A DNA stretch of 64,000 nt from Rhizorhabdus wittichii RW1 (GTDB lineage: Bacteria > Pseudomonadota > Alphaproteobacteria > Sphingomonadales > Sphingomonadaceae). The stretch covers positions 4,405,501-4,469,500 of the forward strand of contig CP000699.1 of NCBI GenBank assembly GCA_000016765.1, written 5' to 3'. Of this stretch, positions 57,538 to 63,728 are shown one piece after another. A program made the position numbers and the translations under genes. Each line of letters starts with the position of its first letter. Position 1 is the first letter of the stretch. Under the pieces are notes generated by a model. That model searched no databases. It was not told where the DNA came from and saw only the letters and a program-made list of their open reading frames with translations.

Positions 57538-58050
57538 TCAAGGACTTAGCCGGCCTCGTCGCGGTGCTTCCCGCCCTCGCCCTCGCGGCTCCTCTCCCGC
57601 AAGCGTCATTCCGGCGGAGGCCGGAATCTCGGGCGTCAGGAGCGCGCGGCCGTCTCCCCGCAACGACGCGACGGCGGCCCCATCCGCCCCGCATTTTCCG
57701 GGTGCATGGGGTTGTGTGTGCGTTTTTTCATTTTTCCCGCTCGGCCCCGATGCGGTGAGGGCCGTGCCGTCCGCCACGCCGAACCCCTCGACCAGCCGAT
57801 CCGTCGCAGCGGGGCTGGTGGCGCGCAGATAGCGGACGATCGACCGGATCCAGGCGGACCGCATCCCATGCTTCCACGCATTGCGATTGCCGCGCGGCGC
57901 ACCGCTGCCCTTGCCCCCGTGCATGCGACACCGCCGGCTGCCGTGCACTGCAGGCGATCGGCAGGGGAGGCCGGAACGGGTGCGGGCGCCGTAGCGGGGA
58001 GAGTTGGCGAGGATTGCGGGTTGGCCGGGTATGTTGGTTGGGGAGTGCAT
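57538..58050 (-). CDS. HGG-motif small basic protein, C-terminus read through a repeat
   Basis: A 170-residue frame. The core GARTRSGLPCRSPAVHGSRR then CRMHGGKGSGAPRGNRNAWK-HGMRS matches a small Cys/His family common in alphaproteobacterial accessory regions (consensus CRMHGG..G.P.GN.NA.KHG). The C-terminal part contains PEIPASAGMT, the peptide produced when a family A repeat (57603-57630) is translated, so the original end of the gene has been replaced or extended by the repeat. Function unknown. It marks the left edge of the accessory segment. Confidence 0.55.
   Translation of the reverse strand: MHSPTNIPGQPAILANSPRYGARTRSGLPCRSPAVHGSRRCRMHGGKGSGAPRGNRNAWKHGMRSAWIRSIVRYLRATSPAATDRLVEGFGVADGTALTASGPSGKNEKTHTQPHAPGKCGADGAAVASLRGDGRALLTPEIPASAGMTLAGEEPRGRGREAPRRGRLSP
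57603..57630. repeat. single family A palindromic repeat
   Basis: One 28-base copy (GCGTCATTCCGGCGGAGGCC followed by GGAATCTC) of the repeat found as inverted pairs at 19086-19177 and 44081-44167. Here it lies inside the 3' part of the HGG-motif reading frame. Confidence 0.8.
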
Positions 58051-58342
58051 ATCTTCGCTTCGGACAGGCTATGGCGAGGCGTGGCTCTAGGGGGGGGCTA
58101 CTTAGCAGGAAAATGCGGAAATTGTAAGAACAAAAAAAGAACAAATGTCGGCCTGTCGTGTGTGGCATGCTGCCGGATGAGCCTTCAGTCATCCTGAATG
58201 GGCGGAAGTAGTTGGGCCGGCTGCCGCCAGACCGCTTCCGGGCGAGCGACCCCAGAAGCCGACCCTCATTCAGTTGCAGGCGTCGAGGATAAGGCAGCTT
58301 GGGGCGTGAAAAGCGTTTTATCATCTCGCCAAAGACATCACT
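58051..58342. other. AT-richer gap without a supported gene
   Basis: About 290 bases with clearly lower GC (for example an A-rich run around 58120-58142) between the HGG-motif gene and the palindrome at 58343. A long minus-strand frame spans it, but its product has no recognisable features. It probably holds the promoter for the + strand operon that follows and marks the junction to acquired DNA. Confidence 0.5.
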
Positions 58343-58388
58343 TCCAAGTTTCATGAAAATATGATTTTATATTTTCATGAAACTTGGA
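58343..58388. promoter_or_regulatory. 20-bp perfect inverted repeat spanning a start codon
   Basis: TCCAAGTTTCATGAAAATAT (58343-58362), six bases, then ATATTTTCATGAAACTTGGA (58369-58388): perfect 20-bp arms. The ATG of the 58377 gene lies in the right arm. It is AT-rich within a GC-rich genome. It could be an operator for the ribbon-helix-helix-like protein encoded there, or an RNA hairpin that hides the start codon. Confidence 0.85.
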
Positions 58389-58574
58389 GAAACGGCGGAC
58401 GGAGGCGATGACGAGCATCTCCAGATCCAGGTTCCTGCGGCGACCAAGCGCGATCTCGGTCAGCGCGCGCTTGATACCCGTGAGCCGATCCGCATGGTCG
58501 TGCTGAGAGCGTTGGCGGCGTATGGCGTGACGGTGCCCGAGGGCGCCATCACCGATCGGCGGAAGCGCAGCTGA
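58377..58574 (+). CDS. small ribbon-helix-helix-like protein (65 aa)
   Basis: A 65-residue product whose core, HLQIQVPAATKRDLGQRALD then REPIRMVVLRALAAYGV, has the strand-helix-helix pattern of CopG/Arc-type DNA-binding proteins. The gene starts inside a 20-bp palindrome and its stop overlaps the next start (TGATG). It is likely the autoregulator of the + strand operon with the MazG-like and glycosylase-like genes. A Shine-Dalgarno sequence is not obvious because the palindrome occupies the leader. Confidence 0.65.
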   Translation: MKLGETADGGDDEHLQIQVPAATKRDLGQRALDTREPIRMVVLRALAAYGVTVPEGAITDRRKRS

Positions 58575-59749
58575 TGGCCGACGACTTCGAAGCGCTAACC
58601 GTGGATCAATATGTTCGCGAGGCGGCGCGAACCGACCAGCGCAAGGGCCCGGGGACGATCGGTTTCACGATGCTAGGTCTGGTCGGCGAAACCGGCAGCC
58701 TGCTCGCCGAAGCCAAGAAGAAGCAGCGCGATGCCGCATCCTATCTGGGCTATGCCGAAGCCGTCGCCGAGGAGATTGGCGATGTTCTCTGGTATCTGGC
58801 CGCTGTTGCGCGCCGGCATCGGTTGGCGCTGAGCGATATCGCTGCTGCGGCGCTGGTCGCCGATGGCGTCTATCGTGCCGGGGACAATGCCGCCCTCAGC
58901 CTACATGCACTCCAGCCTGCGCATATGCCGCTCGCCAAGGCGCCGATGCCGAAGTTCGAACATGGTCTGCTCGGACTGGCGGGTGAGGTCGGGCTGCTCG
59001 CCCGCGAGATCGACGGCGCGGGGCAACCCGGCCATCGCGCGGCCGTAGCGCAGCGTCTTGTAGCAATCATGCGTCGATTGATCCAGGCTGCGACCGATTC
59101 CGGCGTCACCCTGGAAGGCGCTGCGATCAAGAATCTTCAGAAGATCTTCGACCGCTGGCCGCGCGAACGACAGTATCCGGCCGCGTTTGACGAGGACAAG
59201 GATGCCGAGGAACAGCTTCCGCGCACAATGGAGATCGACGTCTATGAGCGCACCGTGCGTGGGCAGGTCTATGTCTTCCAGCGTTCGCGCGGTGTGTATG
59301 TCGGGGATCGGCTGACCGATAACGCGATCGAACCGGACGATTATCGTTTCCACGACGTCTTTCACTATGCCTATGTCGCGGTGCTGGGCTGGTCGCCGGT
59401 CATTCGTGCTTTGCTCCGGCTTAAGCGGAAGAGCGACCCTAAGCTCGACGATGCCGAGGATGGCGCGCGTGCGATCCTGATCGAGGAAGGCGTGACGTCC
59501 TGGCTTTTCGGTCAGGCACAGCAGCTCAATTTCTTCGACGGTGTGAAGCCGGGCGGACTTCCGCTGGACATGCTCAAGCATGTTCGCCAATTCGTCGCCG
59601 GCTACGAGGCCGACCGCTGCCCGCTGTGGCTCTGGGAGGAGGCGATCCTCCAAGGCTACGCGGCTTTTCGTTTCCTCCAGAAGAACCGACGGGCGCGAAT
59701 TGGCATCGATTTCGCCCGCCGCCGCTTGCGTATCAAGGAGTTACCGTGA
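58574..59749 (+). CDS. MazG-like NTP pyrophosphohydrolase with tandem domain and C-terminal domain
   Basis: A 391-residue cytoplasmic protein. Residues 25-105 are an all-alpha NTP-PPase of the MazG/dUTPase superfamily: Glu39 and Glu46 (GLVGETGSLLAEA), and Glu66-Glu67-x2-Asp70 (VAEEIGDVLWYLAAVA), the metal-binding set. Residues 130-200 look like a second, degenerate copy (LGLAGEVGLLAREI; IKNLQKIFDRWP) without the second acidic helix. Residues about 220-345 form a distinct C-terminal domain with HDVFHYAYVAVLGWSPVIRA and EDGARAILIEEGVTSWLFG. It probably hydrolyses a (d)NTP to NMP. Coupled to both neighbours by TGATG overlaps. Confidence 0.82.
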   Translation: MADDFEALTVDQYVREAARTDQRKGPGTIGFTMLGLVGETGSLLAEAKKKQRDAASYLGYAEAVAEEIGDVLWYLAAVARRHRLALSDIAAAALVADGVYRAGDNAALSLHALQPAHMPLAKAPMPKFEHGLLGLAGEVGLLAREIDGAGQPGHRAAVAQRLVAIMRRLIQAATDSGVTLEGAAIKNLQKIFDRWPRERQYPAAFDEDKDAEEQLPRTMEIDVYERTVRGQVYVFQRSRGVYVGDRLTDNAIEPDDYRFHDVFHYAYVAVLGWSPVIRALLRLKRKSDPKLDDAEDGARAILIEEGVTSWLFGQAQQLNFFDGVKPGGLPLDMLKHVRQFVAGYEADRCPLWLWEEAILQGYAAFRFLQKNRRARIGIDFARRRLRIKELP

Positions 59750-60450
59750 TGACCCCCAAAAGCTTTGTATCGGCGCTCGCGGCTGCTGATCTGCCCTCGG
59801 TCTTCAATCCATGGCGCGATCGGTGCTCGATCCATGATCGTCGTGATGCGGCCGCCCGACGCCGGGCCAATCTGGAAAGTGTGATCGCTGCCGCGCTCCA
59901 CGCGCGCGTGGAGACGATCTGGATCGCCCGCGACCTTGGCTATCGCGGCGGCCGCAGGACCGGCGTGCCGCTCACCGACGAGGTGCATCTGACCCATGCT
60001 GCGGCGCTAATGGGCGGCATCGCGCTGGAGCGCGCCACCGAGGGGCCGGCGATCGCCGAGCGCACGGCCGCGATCATCTGGCAGGTGCTGAGCCGGATCG
60101 GTCAGCCGGTGATGCTCTGGAACGTGTTTCCCTTCCATCCGCACGAAGCGGACGATCCAATGTCCAATCGCTGCCACACTCGCGCCGAGCGCGAAGCGAC
60201 CTGGCCGATGTTGCAGGCGCTGGTATCGATGCTTCAACCCAAGCGGATCGTTGCGATCGGCCGCGACGCCCATCTGGCGCTCGACGGCCTCGACATTCCG
60301 ACCACCGCCATCCGTCATCCGAGCTATGGCGGTCAGCGCGAGTTTATCGACGGCATGTTCGACCTGTACGGCATCGCGGATACCCCCCGCGCTCCCGAAC
60401 TTCCGCTCGAACCGCGCTATGCGGCCGCTGTGACCTGCGCATTGGCCTGA
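59749..60450 (+). CDS. uracil-DNA glycosylase superfamily protein
   Basis: 233 residues from ATG 59749 (TGATG with the MazG-like gene). Glycosylase landmarks: VFNPWRDRC near the start; IARDLGYRGGRRTGVPLTDE (59-78) where related enzymes have a GEAPGY-G-R-TG-P-T-E loop; LWNVFPFHPHEADDPMSNR (123-141); and RHPSYGGQREF (189-199) as the HPS motif. The water-activating loop is altered (ARDLG in place of GEAPG), so activity on uracil is uncertain; it may bind or excise another base. Its last 34 bases overlap the convergent thymidylate-synthase-like gene. Confidence 0.8.
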   Translation: MTPKSFVSALAAADLPSVFNPWRDRCSIHDRRDAAARRRANLESVIAAALHARVETIWIARDLGYRGGRRTGVPLTDEVHLTHAAALMGGIALERATEGPAIAERTAAIIWQVLSRIGQPVMLWNVFPFHPHEADDPMSNRCHTRAEREATWPMLQALVSMLQPKRIVAIGRDAHLALDGLDIPTTAIRHPSYGGQREFIDGMFDLYGIADTPRAPELPLEPRYAAAVTCALA

Positions 60451-61199
60451 CCGCAGGCCGCGAGCAGCGCCTTGATGTCGGTCCGGTTCCATTTGTCGGT
60501 GTCGATCGTCGCATGGGTGGACAGGATCGTCAGCGGCCCCGGCGCGATCCCCGCTTCGGCGGCGACGAATGCCATCAATCGGCCGAGACCGATCAGATTG
60601 CCGAGCAGTTTCTCAATATAATAATGGTTCCGGTACATCGCGGTGAGCGCCAGCCGGCGGTTGCTGCCGTCGCCGATCGGCTTGAAGCTCGCGAAACTGA
60701 GGCACTGGCCGCCATAGGGCGAATCGTCGACGTCGCGCGCGGGATCGAACACGCTCAGTTCGAACTTGTTGAGCGCGCTGATCGAGGAATCCTTGAGGCG
60801 GCGGATGATGTCGGTGAGCTGGTTGATCGGCTCGCCCTTGAGCTGCGGCAACTGCATCATTCGCTCGAAGTAATACCCCGACCATCGATCGCCCTTGTTG
60901 CGCACCTTGGGCAGGACATTGTCGCGGAAGCGGTCGAAGAAGAGCGGCGATCCGTGCCGGTGATAGAGGGCCGCCGGGAAGATCGTATTGGCGACCGTCT
61001 CTATGCGCTTGGCGCCGCGCTTGCCGAAGAAGTCGTCGACCGCTGCGACCACCGGATCGGCGAGACTGGCGCGTGCGAGCGGATCGGCCACGTCGATGAC
61101 GACGTTGAAGTCGTGATGGCCGGGCCGCCCATCGACGAGGGCGACGGCTTCACGCCAAGCGGAGACGCAGTCAGGCTGCGGCGGAACGGGAAGGTACAT
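60417..61199 (-). CDS. thymidylate-synthase-like protein
   Basis: A 260-residue protein with GGAGGAG seven bases before its ATG, inside the 3' end of the peptidase gene. The C-terminal half aligns without gaps to thymidylate synthase from the dUMP-site arginine through the conserved Asn (Arg190 to Asn201, RNHYYIEKLLGN). The catalytic Cys is Cys166 (GGQCLSFASF), and LTAMYRN matches the L-Q-RS region; THATID matches the D-x-H-x-Y site with a change (His229). The usual RS-C-D Asp and Tyr are absent. It may act on another pyrimidine nucleotide or only bind one. Fold call by pattern, not by search. Confidence 0.7.
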   Translation of the reverse strand: MYLPVPPQPDCVSAWREAVALVDGRPGHHDFNVVIDVADPLARASLADPVVAAVDDFFGKRGAKRIETVANTIFPAALYHRHGSPLFFDRFRDNVLPKVRNKGDRWSGYYFERMMQLPQLKGEPINQLTDIIRRLKDSSISALNKFELSVFDPARDVDDSPYGGQCLSFASFKPIGDGSNRRLALTAMYRNHYYIEKLLGNLIGLGRLMAFVAAEAGIAPGPLTILSTHATIDTDKWNRTDIKALLAACGQANAQVTAAA

Positions 61200-61845
61200 C
61201 GATCTCCTCCGTCAGGATCGCCGTCGCGAACAGGCGCGGCTTCAGGAATTTCTCGGTGAGCCAGGCATGGCCCTCGACACCCCAGCCGGCTCCCCAGCTG
61301 TTTCGCACGAGGATCGCGCTCTGTCCGTCGGCGAGGCCATGGCCGACCGCGAGGGTCGCATGGCGAAGGCTGGGATCGGGCATCTCGTCATTCGCCGGAT
61401 CGACGATCCCTTCGCCCGACGGCTGGAAGAACGAGGCGGAGAGGCTGGACAGCAACATGACCGGCCGCTCGGCATCGAGCGAAGCAAGGATCTCGGCGAG
61501 ATCAAGCGTGGCCGTGCCGCCCTTGCGGCCAAAGCATGGTCCGGTCACCGATGGCGGAGCCCATTCACTGTCCGGAACGATGTCGAGATAGGGCCACCCG
61601 CTTTCGGCAGGCTGCCCGTCCAGCCGTAGCGCATCAAGCATCGTGGACAGGGTCGCGCCCTGATCGGGAGCGCGACGGCCACGGCGCTGGGCGTGAAAAT
61701 AGGCATATTCGCAGGAAAGCGGAATCAATCCGTCGCGCAAGGCGGCGTGTCCATCGCTCGCAGCGAAGGCGAGACAGGTCGGCCGCGCGCCCTGATCGCG
61801 CACCGGTCCGAGCAGGTGCCGAAGATCTGTCTTGATCGCGATCAT
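61171..61845 (-). CDS. cytoplasmic papain-like (C1) cysteine peptidase
   Basis: A 224-residue single-domain protease. All active-site elements are present: Gln18 and Cys24 (GPVRDQGARPTCLAFA), His162 (RHATLAVGHGL) and Asn182 (LVRNSWGAGWG). There is no signal peptide or propeptide, so it would be active in the cytoplasm unless held in check. It lies between the ImmA/IrrE-inhibitor-like gene (5 bases upstream) and the thymidylate-synthase-like gene (29-base overlap). The substrate is unknown. Confidence 0.87.
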   Translation of the reverse strand: MIAIKTDLRHLLGPVRDQGARPTCLAFAASDGHAALRDGLIPLSCEYAYFHAQRRGRRAPDQGATLSTMLDALRLDGQPAESGWPYLDIVPDSEWAPPSVTGPCFGRKGGTATLDLAEILASLDAERPVMLLSSLSASFFQPSGEGIVDPANDEMPDPSLRHATLAVGHGLADGQSAILVRNSWGAGWGVEGHAWLTEKFLKPRLFATAILTEEIDVPSRSAAA

Positions 61846-61850
61846 GCGTA

Positions 61851-62861
61851 TCAGGCCGCCTCAAGCAGATGGCGCCGTTCGGCGCGGGAAAGGCCTTCTT
61901 GCTCGGGACCGGTAAGATCGAAGTCGATCGTAAGGCTGGCATGCGCGGCCGCCGGTTGCCAGGGGCGCCGTTCGTTGAGCGACATGCGACCGCGCCTCGC
62001 CGCTTCGGGTGCCGCGGTGACGCGGCGGACGACCGGACCACCGACCGCCTCGACGTCGAACGCTTCGCGCTCATCGCGCACCACCGCGAAACCGCTCGCG
62101 ATGAGCTGGTCGAGATCCCAAAGATAGCCGCCGCCGCTATGCTCCTTGAGACGCAGCACGAACAGGTCGTTGCGACTGCCGTCGAGGCGCACGCCCTCGT
62201 CGCGTTCGGTCAGCAGCCAGACATCGCCGCGATAATTTTCGGGGCGATAATCCTTTAGCAGATCAACCTTGAGGCTACGGGGCTGAGTATCGAGAAGCTC
62301 GCGCATGATCGCGCTTGAGATGAGATCGTAGCGGACCAAGGTGCGGCAGGTCGCCTCATAGCTGGCACCAATGCGCAGCGAGAGCTGATAGGCGATATTG
62401 GGTCGGCGAAGGTCGGTGACGGTCCAGCCCTGTCGCGCGCAATGCTGGGCGATCAGCCATTTGGGCATCATGAACGCGATCGCGAATGCATCCGCCTCGG
62501 TTTCCTGGAACTGACTGCCGGGTTCCGGGCTCATCGGCATGCGGCGCAGGATGCTTTCATCGTCGAGGCTGGGATCGTGCCGCATCGAGAAATGGCCCAG
62601 CTCATGTGCGGCGGTGAACCGCTGGATGCTCATCGGCCGCTCGGTCGTGACCAGCACACCGGGTACCGGTGCGCTGAGATAGGCGCCTAGCAGGCCTTTG
62701 AGCGGTCGCAGTAGCAGCGGCAGGTCGAGCGCATGGATCGTGCCGAACACATCTACATTGCCGCCCTGCTGTTCGATCAGGGCCTGGGTGCCAAGCTGGC
62801 GATGGAGACGGCCTGCCGCCATCGCGCCTGCCCGGACTGCGCTGGCATAGTCGCGCGCCAC
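61851..62861 (-). CDS. ImmA/IrrE metallopeptidase with C-terminal chagasin (I42)-like region
   Basis: A 336-residue protein. The zinc site is HELGH (86-90) with a downstream QETEADAFA (119-127), the ImmA/IrrE pattern. Residues about 215-315 resemble chagasin-type inhibitors of papain-like proteases, with three loops in order: HSGGGYLWDL (241-250, cf. NPTTGY-W), AVGGPVVRRV (272-281, cf. GxGG) and ERRPWQP (297-303, cf. RPW). It is adjacent to a C1 peptidase gene, the target class of such inhibitors. The upstream XRE gene fits the usual XRE-ImmA pairing. Metallopeptidase call is firm; the inhibitor domain is by motif. Confidence 0.82.
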   Translation of the reverse strand: MARDYASAVRAGAMAAGRLHRQLGTQALIEQQGGNVDVFGTIHALDLPLLLRPLKGLLGAYLSAPVPGVLVTTERPMSIQRFTAAHELGHFSMRHDPSLDDESILRRMPMSPEPGSQFQETEADAFAIAFMMPKWLIAQHCARQGWTVTDLRRPNIAYQLSLRIGASYEATCRTLVRYDLISSAIMRELLDTQPRSLKVDLLKDYRPENYRGDVWLLTERDEGVRLDGSRNDLFVLRLKEHSGGGYLWDLDQLIASGFAVVRDEREAFDVEAVGGPVVRRVTAAPEAARRGRMSLNERRPWQPAAAHASLTIDFDLTGPEQEGLSRAERRHLLEAA

Positions 62862-62864
62862 GGA

Positions 62865-63242
62865 TCAGGCCGCCCCGCCCGACGATCGCGCGAGAAGATA
62901 CTCGGCGAAGCGGCTGAGTTCGGCGCGGTCCTCGGTCGACAGATCGGCGACGCGCCGCGCGAGATGGGCGACATCGACCGGCAGGCTCGCCGACGCCTCG
63001 TCCTCGCCAGTGAAATAGGCGACTGACTGCCGGTAGAGCTTGGCAAGGCGCGTGAGTTCGATCGCTTCGACCCGGCGTTGACCACTTTCGATGTCGGTCA
63101 ATGCGGTGCGGGGTATCTTGAGATAGGTCGCAACCTCGTCCTGCTTCAGGCCGAGATATTTGCGGGCTTCGCGCAAGCGGTCGCCCAGCCGCCGACGTTC
63201 GGCCTCGTCATCGGCCGCCTGACCAAGCGACAATTGCGTCAC
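62865..63242 (-). CDS. XRE-family helix-turn-helix repressor
   Basis: A 125-residue DNA-binding protein. The HTH lies at about 18-72 (RLREARKYLGLKQDEVATYL; IPRTALTDIESGQRRVEAIE). The start is GTG overlapping the carrier-like gene stop (GTGA). XRE and ImmA/IrrE genes in tandem form a repressor-protease pair in phage- and ICE-type switches. A likely operator is the palindrome in the promoter at 63610-63638. Confidence 0.92.
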   Translation of the reverse strand: MTQLSLGQAADDEAERRRLGDRLREARKYLGLKQDEVATYLKIPRTALTDIESGQRRVEAIELTRLAKLYRQSVAYFTGEDEASASLPVDVAHLARRVADLSTEDRAELSRFAEYLLARSSGGAA

Positions 63243-63577
63243 GGCTTGGCTCCCTTCTTCTTGATCCAGACCTTTTCGATGCGAGGCACCAGATGCGCGA
63301 GCGCTTCCTCGACCGAGACATAGCCGCCGGTCTGGACGATATTGTCACGCAACTCGAAGCCGATCACTGCCTCGACCGCGCACAGCGTATCCACGATCGA
63401 GAGCGAATCGAGCGGCACTGGCGCGTTTCTGATGCCGGCCTCATCCTTGGGAAGCGCGATGCCGCGCAATTGCGCTTCGGTGCGGGCGACATCGAGCAGT
63501 TCGTCGACTAGCGCCTTGATGACATCGTTCTTCGGGAAGGCCGTAATCGTCGGAGCGGGGGGAGCAATGGTCGCCAT
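63239..63577 (-). CDS. acyl-carrier-protein-like protein
   Basis: About 112 residues from ATG 63577 (GAGG five bases upstream; a GTG at 63601 is also possible). The helical core has VPLDSLSIVDTLCAVEAVIGFEL, with DSL placing a possible phosphopantetheine Ser at 58, and YVSVEEALAHLVPRIEKVW at the end, like carrier proteins. The surroundings are unusual for such a protein: no synthase or ligase is adjacent, and it heads the repressor/protease operon. It could be a true carrier or a scaffold using the fold. The upstream frame to 63634 lies in the promoter. Confidence 0.68.
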   Translation of the reverse strand: MATIAPPAPTITAFPKNDVIKALVDELLDVARTEAQLRGIALPKDEAGIRNAPVPLDSLSIVDTLCAVEAVIGFELRDNIVQTGGYVSVEEALAHLVPRIEKVWIKKKGAKP

Positions 63578-63609
63578 TCGAACCTCGCACGATTTCTCCA
63601 CATATCTCC

Positions 63610-63638
63610 TATATAATGTCGGAAAATCCGACATGCAA
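63610..63638 (-). promoter_or_regulatory. promoter with operator in the spacer for the ACP-XRE-ImmA operon
   Basis: On the minus strand: -35 TTGCAT (63633-63638), a 17-base spacer, -10 TATATA (63610-63615). The spacer contains the palindrome TGTCGGA-TTT-TCCGACA (63617-63633), which overlaps both boxes by position. Bound repressor would block polymerase, so autorepression by the XRE protein is likely. Confidence 0.72.
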
Positions 63639-63728
63639 GCGGTTCGAAGAAATCTCGCGAATGCCTCGTGACCGATCGTCCAATTAATTGATTAGCAGTT
63701 GGATCGGAATCCGTTGCAGACGAGTGGG

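Follow-up and report, generated by a model that had tools for sequence, protein, structure and literature searches.

A mobile eight-gene unit of Rhizorhabdus wittichii RW1 joins nucleotide-directed proteins to a CapH/CapP-like switch and a papain-type peptidase: a candidate conflict module

Phage thymine hypermodification employs a hydroxymethylase, a 5-hydroxymethyldeoxyuridine (5-hmdU) DNA kinase and an aGPT-pyrophosphorylase. In the regulatory pairs CapH/CapP and DdrO/IrrE-PprI, the genes of an XRE repressor and an ImmA/IrrE metallopeptidase are neighbours in an operon that has a palindromic operator. CapP is activated by single-stranded DNA (ssDNA) and cleaves CapH (PMC13373217), and cleavage of DdrO by PprI is strongly raised by ssDNA (PMC10904395). 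Work with DefensePredictor reports validated anti-phage units with 5-hmdU kinase and thymidylate synthase (TS) domains, dNMP kinase and NMAD domains likewise in anti-phage units, and MazG, MazG-C and uracil-DNA glycosylase (UDG) domains in predicted systems, so that nucleotide and uracil chemistry is already in print as defence-related (PMC13092281). Here we describe eight genes, A to H, in a window of 64,000 nucleotides from R. wittichii RW1 (contig CP000699.1, positions 4,405,501 to 4,469,500; "the window" means this whole stretch). The original prediction, made from these letters alone, had seen two convergent operons that combine nucleotide enzymes with a restrained protease, and profile matches and layout bear out the gene content and arrangement: the eight genes lie at 58377-63577 and the 3' ends of the operons overlap by 34 bp (60417-60450; Table 1). 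We read the locus tentatively, with a probability of about 0.4, as a mobile, inducible conflict module, most likely directed against invaders, that would be organized around 5-substituted uracil and an inhibitor-restrained protease.

Each of the known systems resembles part of this unit. Like CapH/CapP, the unit pairs a repressor (E) with a metallopeptidase (F); unlike CapH/CapP, F of the forms that bear a C1 peptidase has a C-terminal I42 domain, and a carrier-protein gene precedes E. Papain-type peptidases with chagasin or amoebiasin inhibitors offer a second parallel, since G keeps the catalytic residues and the I42 domain matches amoebiasin-2; unlike those pairs, the inhibitor forms part of a metallopeptidase and shares an operon with the peptidase, and G, at 224 aa, has no room for a long prodomain. 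The likeness to phage thymine hypermodification lies in the TS fold, and 5-hmdU DNA kinase (HMUDK) and thymidylate kinase occur in sister loci, whereas the window form lacks HMUDK and proteins B and H are unmatched in phage records. With the DefensePredictor units, compared from their text alone, the unit shares a TS-type protein, MazG_C and UDG, and its sister loci share the 5-hmdU kinase; that text is without the terms "acyl carrier protein", "ImmA", "papain" or "chagasin" (PMC13092281). Among the matches listed from full-text literature, no description of this assembly was found, although an earlier description is possible. The original prediction knew of no described system of this make-up; parts of the chemistry have been predicted or validated in defence (PMC13092281), and the assembly as such, in which this chemistry is combined with a CapH/CapP-like switch, a carrier protein and a papain-type peptidase presumably held by a chagasin domain, is probably an undescribed defence or stress module.

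Table 1. Coordinates of the unit and its features, in positions of the window.
Feature	Position	Strand	Basis
Whole mobile unit	58341..63640		Approximate limits of blastn DNA homology to relatives in unlike contexts
Inverted repeat, two 20-bp arms and 6-bp loop, across the gene A start codon; TTTCATGAAA-type putative operator	58343..58388		Positions -34..+12 of the A start
Gene A, 65 aa, ribbon-helix-helix-like by eye, probable autoregulator	58377..58574	+	Open reading frame (ORF)
Gene B, 391 aa, N part MazG/dimeric-dUTPase-like, then MazG_C domain	58574..59749	+	Profile matches, PHROG 229
Gene C, UDG-superfamily protein, motifs ARDLGYRGGRRTG and RHPSYGG	59749..60450	+	Profiles, weak PDB profile matches
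Gene H, divergent TS-fold protein	60417..61199	-	Profiles, fold, conserved residues
Gene G, papain-type (C1) peptidase, 224 aa, Cys24/His162/Asn182	61171..61845	-	Pfam, alignment
Gene F, ImmA/IrrE (HELGH) metallopeptidase fused to I42 chagasin-type inhibitor domain	61851..62861	-	Pfam, PDB profiles
Gene E, XRE repressor, CapH-like	62865..63242	-	Pfam, PADLOC
Gene D, acyl-carrier-protein-like, invariant Asp-Ser (putative phosphopantetheine motif)	63239..63577	-	Alignment, profile
Operator-like palindrome ATGTCGGATTTTCCGACAT upstream of D	63616..63634		Recurs in other loci

The eight-gene set is a discrete mobile unit. Genome contigs scanned with protein F yielded 34 related loci, of which 32, across genera, hold all eight genes in the same order; one of the others (L034) stops at its contig end and one (L061) shows no A. 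In loci with unlike surroundings, blastn homology ends near the same points, equivalent to 58341-63640 of the window, and is shorter or broken in more distant copies (L059, L061, L118, L125, L132, L139 and L140). The closest copies (89% DNA identity; Sphingopyxis H050 and a metagenome-assembled genome) match the window across the unit only, and the genes around the Sphingopyxis copy differ by eye from those of the window. The surroundings of 21 loci (L037-L054, L060, L062 and L063), from several genera, match those of L039 at 96.4-100% DNA identity (L037 over only 6.3 kb), and TrbE-, TrbB- and TraG-type conjugation genes lie around L039. Near relatives G003 and G013 have flanks 90-95% identical to those of the window, and these enclose other genes; the module profiles gave no match in the corresponding stretches. 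The site in the window is therefore variable, and an explanation by core genes was rejected. In these relatives the variable site (about 58054-70055 in window numbering; L203, L204) is occupied by a REP-type transposase-like gene and a carrier-protein-like ORF (L203:3938-4315), both recognized by eye, and, in L204, by a protein whose HATPase match is sub-threshold; the carrier-like ORF has no match in Pfam or to the D profile.

The unit is sparsely distributed. Its window-type form is present in 3 of 14 genomes of the genus (G000, G004 and G011), and G002 has a sister form with the kinase (L134); weaker ImmA matches, G001 among them, also occur. F has strong homologues (E<1e-50) in 8 of 197 relatives, and H has homologues in 7 of 385 genomes of the class (two fragments only, G292 and G422), the own genome included in both counts. 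In a phylum sample, H matches were found in 31 of 398 genomes: 4 with E<1e-50, own included, and 27 weak (E above 1e-14). Many of the weak matches (L090-L108) lie in ORFs of about 490-790 aa that recur in related families, and these may be TS-like domains in larger proteins. Among plasmids, H matches were found in 22 records; 17 of these were opened directly and one through a contig of G004 (L131), and H93, H94 and H96 match F and B too. All 18 plasmid records read carry, by profile, the core of acyl carrier protein, XRE, ImmA and TS, and L212 separately holds a fragment of H only. Plasmid hosts include Alpha- and Betaproteobacteria, Streptomyces, two cyanobacteria and one haloarchaeon. The core is also present in two viral contigs, in one of which a gene that looks by eye like a tyrosine integrase adjoins it. 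With the single sequences of B and H, tblastn found no match in 50,697 phage records, and derivation from a phage modification cassette was rejected on that result; in view of the PHROG 229 profile match of B and the two viral contigs, carriage by phages looks rare rather than absent. Module genes (H, F, G, C or B) are broken or split in L054, L063/L137, L125 and L142, and together with the lone H fragment in L212 this suggests that the unit is also lost.

These results agree with the original prediction in that the homologues of both operons co-occur, that the set moves as a unit, conjugative plasmids included, and that it is no core locus, as its absence from the same site in G003 and G013 and its limited presence in the genus indicate. 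Its proposal of joint inheritance is upheld by the 32 complete loci but must be qualified, since MazG_C-UDG is also found apart from the minus-strand operon, mostly beside TIR genes, and that operon is also found with 5-hmdU DNA kinase replacing UDG. Ordinary housekeeping or remnant genes with no joint function could be expected to show such separate occurrences, of MazG_C-UDG on the one hand and of the D-H operon on the other. This explanation is very improbable, given the gene order kept across genera, the sharp edges of the unit, and its conserved active sites and operators.

The comparison of relatives distinguishes a core from exchangeable parts. The system loci, 71 in number with some being one record reached twice, formed 37 clusters at 90% ImmA identity, and 36 after truncated L119 was dropped. 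The I42 domain and the C1 peptidase were both present in 26 clusters and both missing from 10, and never was one found alone. Likewise, UDG was found in 20 clusters and HMUDK (PF18723) in 16, never together within the fetched stretches. Omission of the alignment A2 loci (25 clusters) gave 18/7 for I42/C1 and 14/11 for UDG/HMUDK. On a quick tree of ImmA and TS, in which 11 of 34 inner branches are open, a single change accounts for the C1 states and two changes for those of UDG/HMUDK, and the cluster counts therefore overstate both associations. Searches of two whole UDG-form plasmids found no HMUDK match, nor did HMUDK_hel match anywhere in the whole genome of the window, the same model being positive in 3 of 5 control records. 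In the 10 clusters without C1 and I42 the XRE-ImmA-TS core persists, and a carrier gene was found in 8 of them. ORFs resembling AcpS or phosphopantetheinyl transferase (PPTase) lie near the core in 11 of 37 cluster representatives (several by weak matches), and 8 of 37 have a dCTP deaminase-like ORF nearby; L064 and L117 have a thymidylate kinase. Carrier protein, switch and TS-fold protein are the most constant partners; UDG and 5-hmdU kinase interchange, and protease and inhibitor come and go jointly.

The unfailing pairing of I42 with C1, in a compact overlapping operon with one palindromic operator, would also suit a three-part toxin-antitoxin system with G as the protease toxin, F inhibiting and regulating it and E as the repressor, the nucleotide genes either repairing damage or being passengers. 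Persistence of the core in the 10 clusters that lack both marks the protease as an add-on, and we hold such a system to be unlikely. A different explanation, self-protection, has the module modifying thymine or uracil of its carrier plasmid or integrative and conjugative element against host restriction, with MazG and UDG clearing unwanted bases. Thirteen of the 22 plasmid records with H are typed conjugative, and HMUDK, TS, thymidylate kinase and dCTP deaminase in sister loci would provide such chemistry. Against it, the genome of the window has no HMUDK match and its unit sits on a large chromosomal contig, and a UDG and an inducible protease would be ill-suited to constitutive protection; self-protection is somewhat unlikely, the least so of the alternatives.

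In the proposed switch, E adjoins F in all 34 loci and matches capH in PADLOC (E=1.2e-12). PDB-profile matches of F include CapP (E=7e-10) and IrrE (E=7.6e-8), CapP and amoebiasin being closest, and its HELGH motif is invariant in 11 of 11. The I42 domain scores 28.6 bits in Pfam (cut-off 27.2) and matches amoebiasin-2 at E=4.2e-9; the window protein has GYLW and RPW, which we take to be the inhibitory-loop motifs of chagasin. G has its catalytic Cys, His and Asn unchanged in 8 of 8 aligned sequences. Within the unit, PADLOC recognized E and F only; the models concerned were capH, capP, RmrA, control-protein, HTH_VI and candidate PDC-M69 ones, plus PtuA for F (E=0.07). The match of F to PDC-M69B has E=1.4e-8 and that of E to PDC-M69A is weak (0.016), with no whole-system match to this PADLOC-DB candidate. 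Six of the eight proteins had no PADLOC match, and no known immune operon (CBASS, BREX etc.) was found among the eight genes. A known defence system was rejected because the matches are confined to E and F.

Both operons look autoregulated, since palindromes recur before D and before A. A TGTCGGA-N-TCCGACA palindrome lies upstream of D in 13 of 24 loci (one with a mismatch), the others having a variant, another palindrome or none, and a TCATGA-containing palindrome lies upstream of A in 15 of 18; neither set was dereplicated. The repressor/protease set, the uracil/thymine theme and the palindrome at each operon's promoter or start, all named in the original prediction, are upheld, the first two by profiles, a structure model and relatives. 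From its homology to CapH/CapP, the E-F pair is expected to work alike. Since that pair responds to ssDNA, DNA damage is by analogy the likelier trigger; sensing of abnormal nucleotides, which the original prediction favoured, is possible and less supported.

Proteins D and H would supply the chemistry. D resembles an acyl carrier protein with a putative phosphopantetheine site: its profile matches AcpM (E=3.9e-6) and D57 and S58 are invariant in 11 of 11 aligned sequences, although D as a single sequence has no Pfam match to acyl carrier proteins. No AcpS- or PPTase-like ORF was found inside the unit of the window. H has the thymidylate synthase fold. Across its 12 aligned rows Cys166 and Asn201 never vary and Arg190 is present in 11; from the alignment with TS we take these to be the catalytic Cys, uracil Asn and phosphate Arg, respectively. 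Position 193, presumably that of the folate-site Asp in the RSxD motif of TS, carries Tyr in the window; the 12 rows show Y, F, D, H or Q there, with Asp in only one. H scores 40 bits, below the 174.55 of the curated TS model TIGR03283.

These residues bear on whether the module makes a modified base or attacks one in invaders. In a counter-modification defence, the targets of MazG and UDG (or HMUDK) would be phage nucleotides or DNA containing uracil, either plain or hydroxymethylated, and H would sense such nucleotides. The alternation of UDG and HMUDK, never together in 20 and 16 clusters, would fit two ways onto one base, and the invariance of Asn201, which aligns with the uracil-reading Asn of TS, is in keeping with such a defence. 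Nevertheless, the invariant Cys of H, the Asp-Ser of D and the nearby AcpS/PPTase-like genes suggest synthesis over sensing, and counter-modification is a shade less likely again than the toxin-antitoxin system. On the strength of the invariant Cys (H) and Ser (D), we tentatively favour a module that makes the modified base. In a bolder and decidedly improbable version, a TS relative with an altered folate-site Asp would use a phosphopantetheine carrier in place of folate, giving a carrier-tethered or thiol/acyl-substituted deoxyuridine that, as a nucleotide or within DNA, would be read by UDG or, in sister systems, by 5-hmdU kinase, the ImmA-I42 protein holding the papain-type protease until the damage switch fires; this would be an undescribed immune class ranging from haloarchaea to cyanobacteria.

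In the plus-strand operon, the ribbon-helix-helix identity originally proposed for A was not confirmed: it has no Pfam match and no credible structure match, and its best structure row, a designed trefoil (E=0.00019), was treated as chance. B has a profile match to PHROG 229 and retains three of four expected acidic ligands, position 42 being Ser or Ala in 12 of 12 aligned sequences. MazG_C is labelled a nucleotide kinase in PMC13092281; among the structures listed for the B model no kinase was named with a close match, and that comparison hardly probes the MazG_C half, parts of which have a pLDDT near 53. For C, the window protein scores 23.7 bits against Pfam UDG (cut-off 24.3) and its homologue in L073 scores 27 bits, above the cut-off. 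All three PDB profile matches of C are weak (E 0.05-0.61); two have uracil-DNA glycosylase as their name, and the third is listed as a "conserved hypothetical protein". An unusual RDLGYRGGRRTG motif and RHPSYGG are kept in 8 of 8.

From the gene content, the mobility, the family and fold assignments, the conserved catalytic residues and the two exchange patterns, which were observed directly, we infer the functional steps of the conflict module. At rest, E would repress the D-H operon through the TGTCGGA palindrome and A would repress the A-C operon. DNA damage or invasion, by way of ssDNA, would activate F to cleave E, as CapP does CapH. After induction, D and H would jointly act on a deoxyuridine-type nucleotide or base, B would trim pools of (deoxy)nucleoside triphosphates, and C would act on the resulting or a foreign modified uracil in DNA, its slot being filled by 5-hmdU DNA kinase in sister systems. 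The I42 domain of F would restrain G until F is consumed or reshaped, after which G would serve as a fail-safe executor.

Several findings weigh against this interpretation. The I42/C1 and UDG/HMUDK patterns rest on about one and two tree changes, respectively, and PADLOC yields only regulator-type and candidate ImmA/HTH models, including the pair PDC-M69A/B. B is without one usual acidic metal ligand (position 42). The motif A region of C reads ARDLGYRGG, which presumably differs from the classical UDG forms, and its PDB matches are weak (E=0.05 at best). H stands far from true TS (E=0.013 in the PDB profile comparison) and may not be an enzyme. Finally, 6 of the 17 plasmid core loci opened directly (L065, L067, L071, L072, L074 and L214) have no annotated defence- or toxin-type neighbour.

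The other 11 have such a gene in the stretch (17 loci: L064-L072, L074, L138-L142, L213 and L214; raw counts, with no background from random plasmid regions). The neighbours include a restriction endonuclease, Cas6, caspase family genes (4), CHAT, Shedu, RES-Xre with MNT-HEPN, AbiEii and VapC. In L140 and L142, a second gene lies directly upstream of D and a gene named in the record as caspase family lies one further off; in L140 the caspase-named gene has no Pfam peptidase domain and the second gene has only sub-threshold alpha/beta-hydrolase matches. Five loci that have MazG_C-UDG but no core were opened, and in four of them TIR genes are annotated, with SIR2, a CBASS phospholipase or patatin. 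Three of these TIR loci have an Nmad2 gene directly before MazG_C, and the one TIR tested matches Thoeris ThsB; the fifth locus (L075) combines an Nmad2-like ORF with a weak match to a TIR profile. The order TIR - Nmad2 - MazG_C - UDG was noted in L073, L076 and L078 (also L075 and L077), with further TIR, SIR2, SLOG or patatin genes, and this is possibly a Thoeris-like array that shares the MazG_C-UDG pair.

Other neighbours were seen in passing. A large metallophosphoesterase gene adjoins the plus-type operon in L069 (12490-14673), L140 (13553-15727) and L142; it has a sub-threshold TS match in L069 (PF00303, E=0.0012) and none in L140, where a clear thymidylate synthase gene follows it, L142 being annotated alike. 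In the window, an ORF with a HGGKGSGAPRGNRNAWKHG motif (57538-58050) lies just left of the unit and is also present in relatives without the unit. Directly upstream of D, on the same strand, gene I (63729-64463; 244 aa) has GHG and ACQGG motifs and is caspase/CHAT-like by eye; it had no Pfam match and no credible PDB sequence match, and lies outside the conserved unit.

Taken as a whole, the interpretation advanced in the original prediction is partly supported. If the conflict module works as proposed, it would join a carrier protein and a TS fold, a CapH/CapP-like switch, a chagasin leash on a papain-type protease and an exchange of UDG for 5-hmdU kinase, with modified uracil as the common currency; among the publications searched, these four features were not found together. 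The linkage of I42 and C1 would then be a case of a chagasin-type inhibitor working within a bacterial regulator. Such a module would bring new chemistry to nucleotide-centred immunity and would make the roles of MazG_C and of the bacterial 5-hmdU kinase directly testable.

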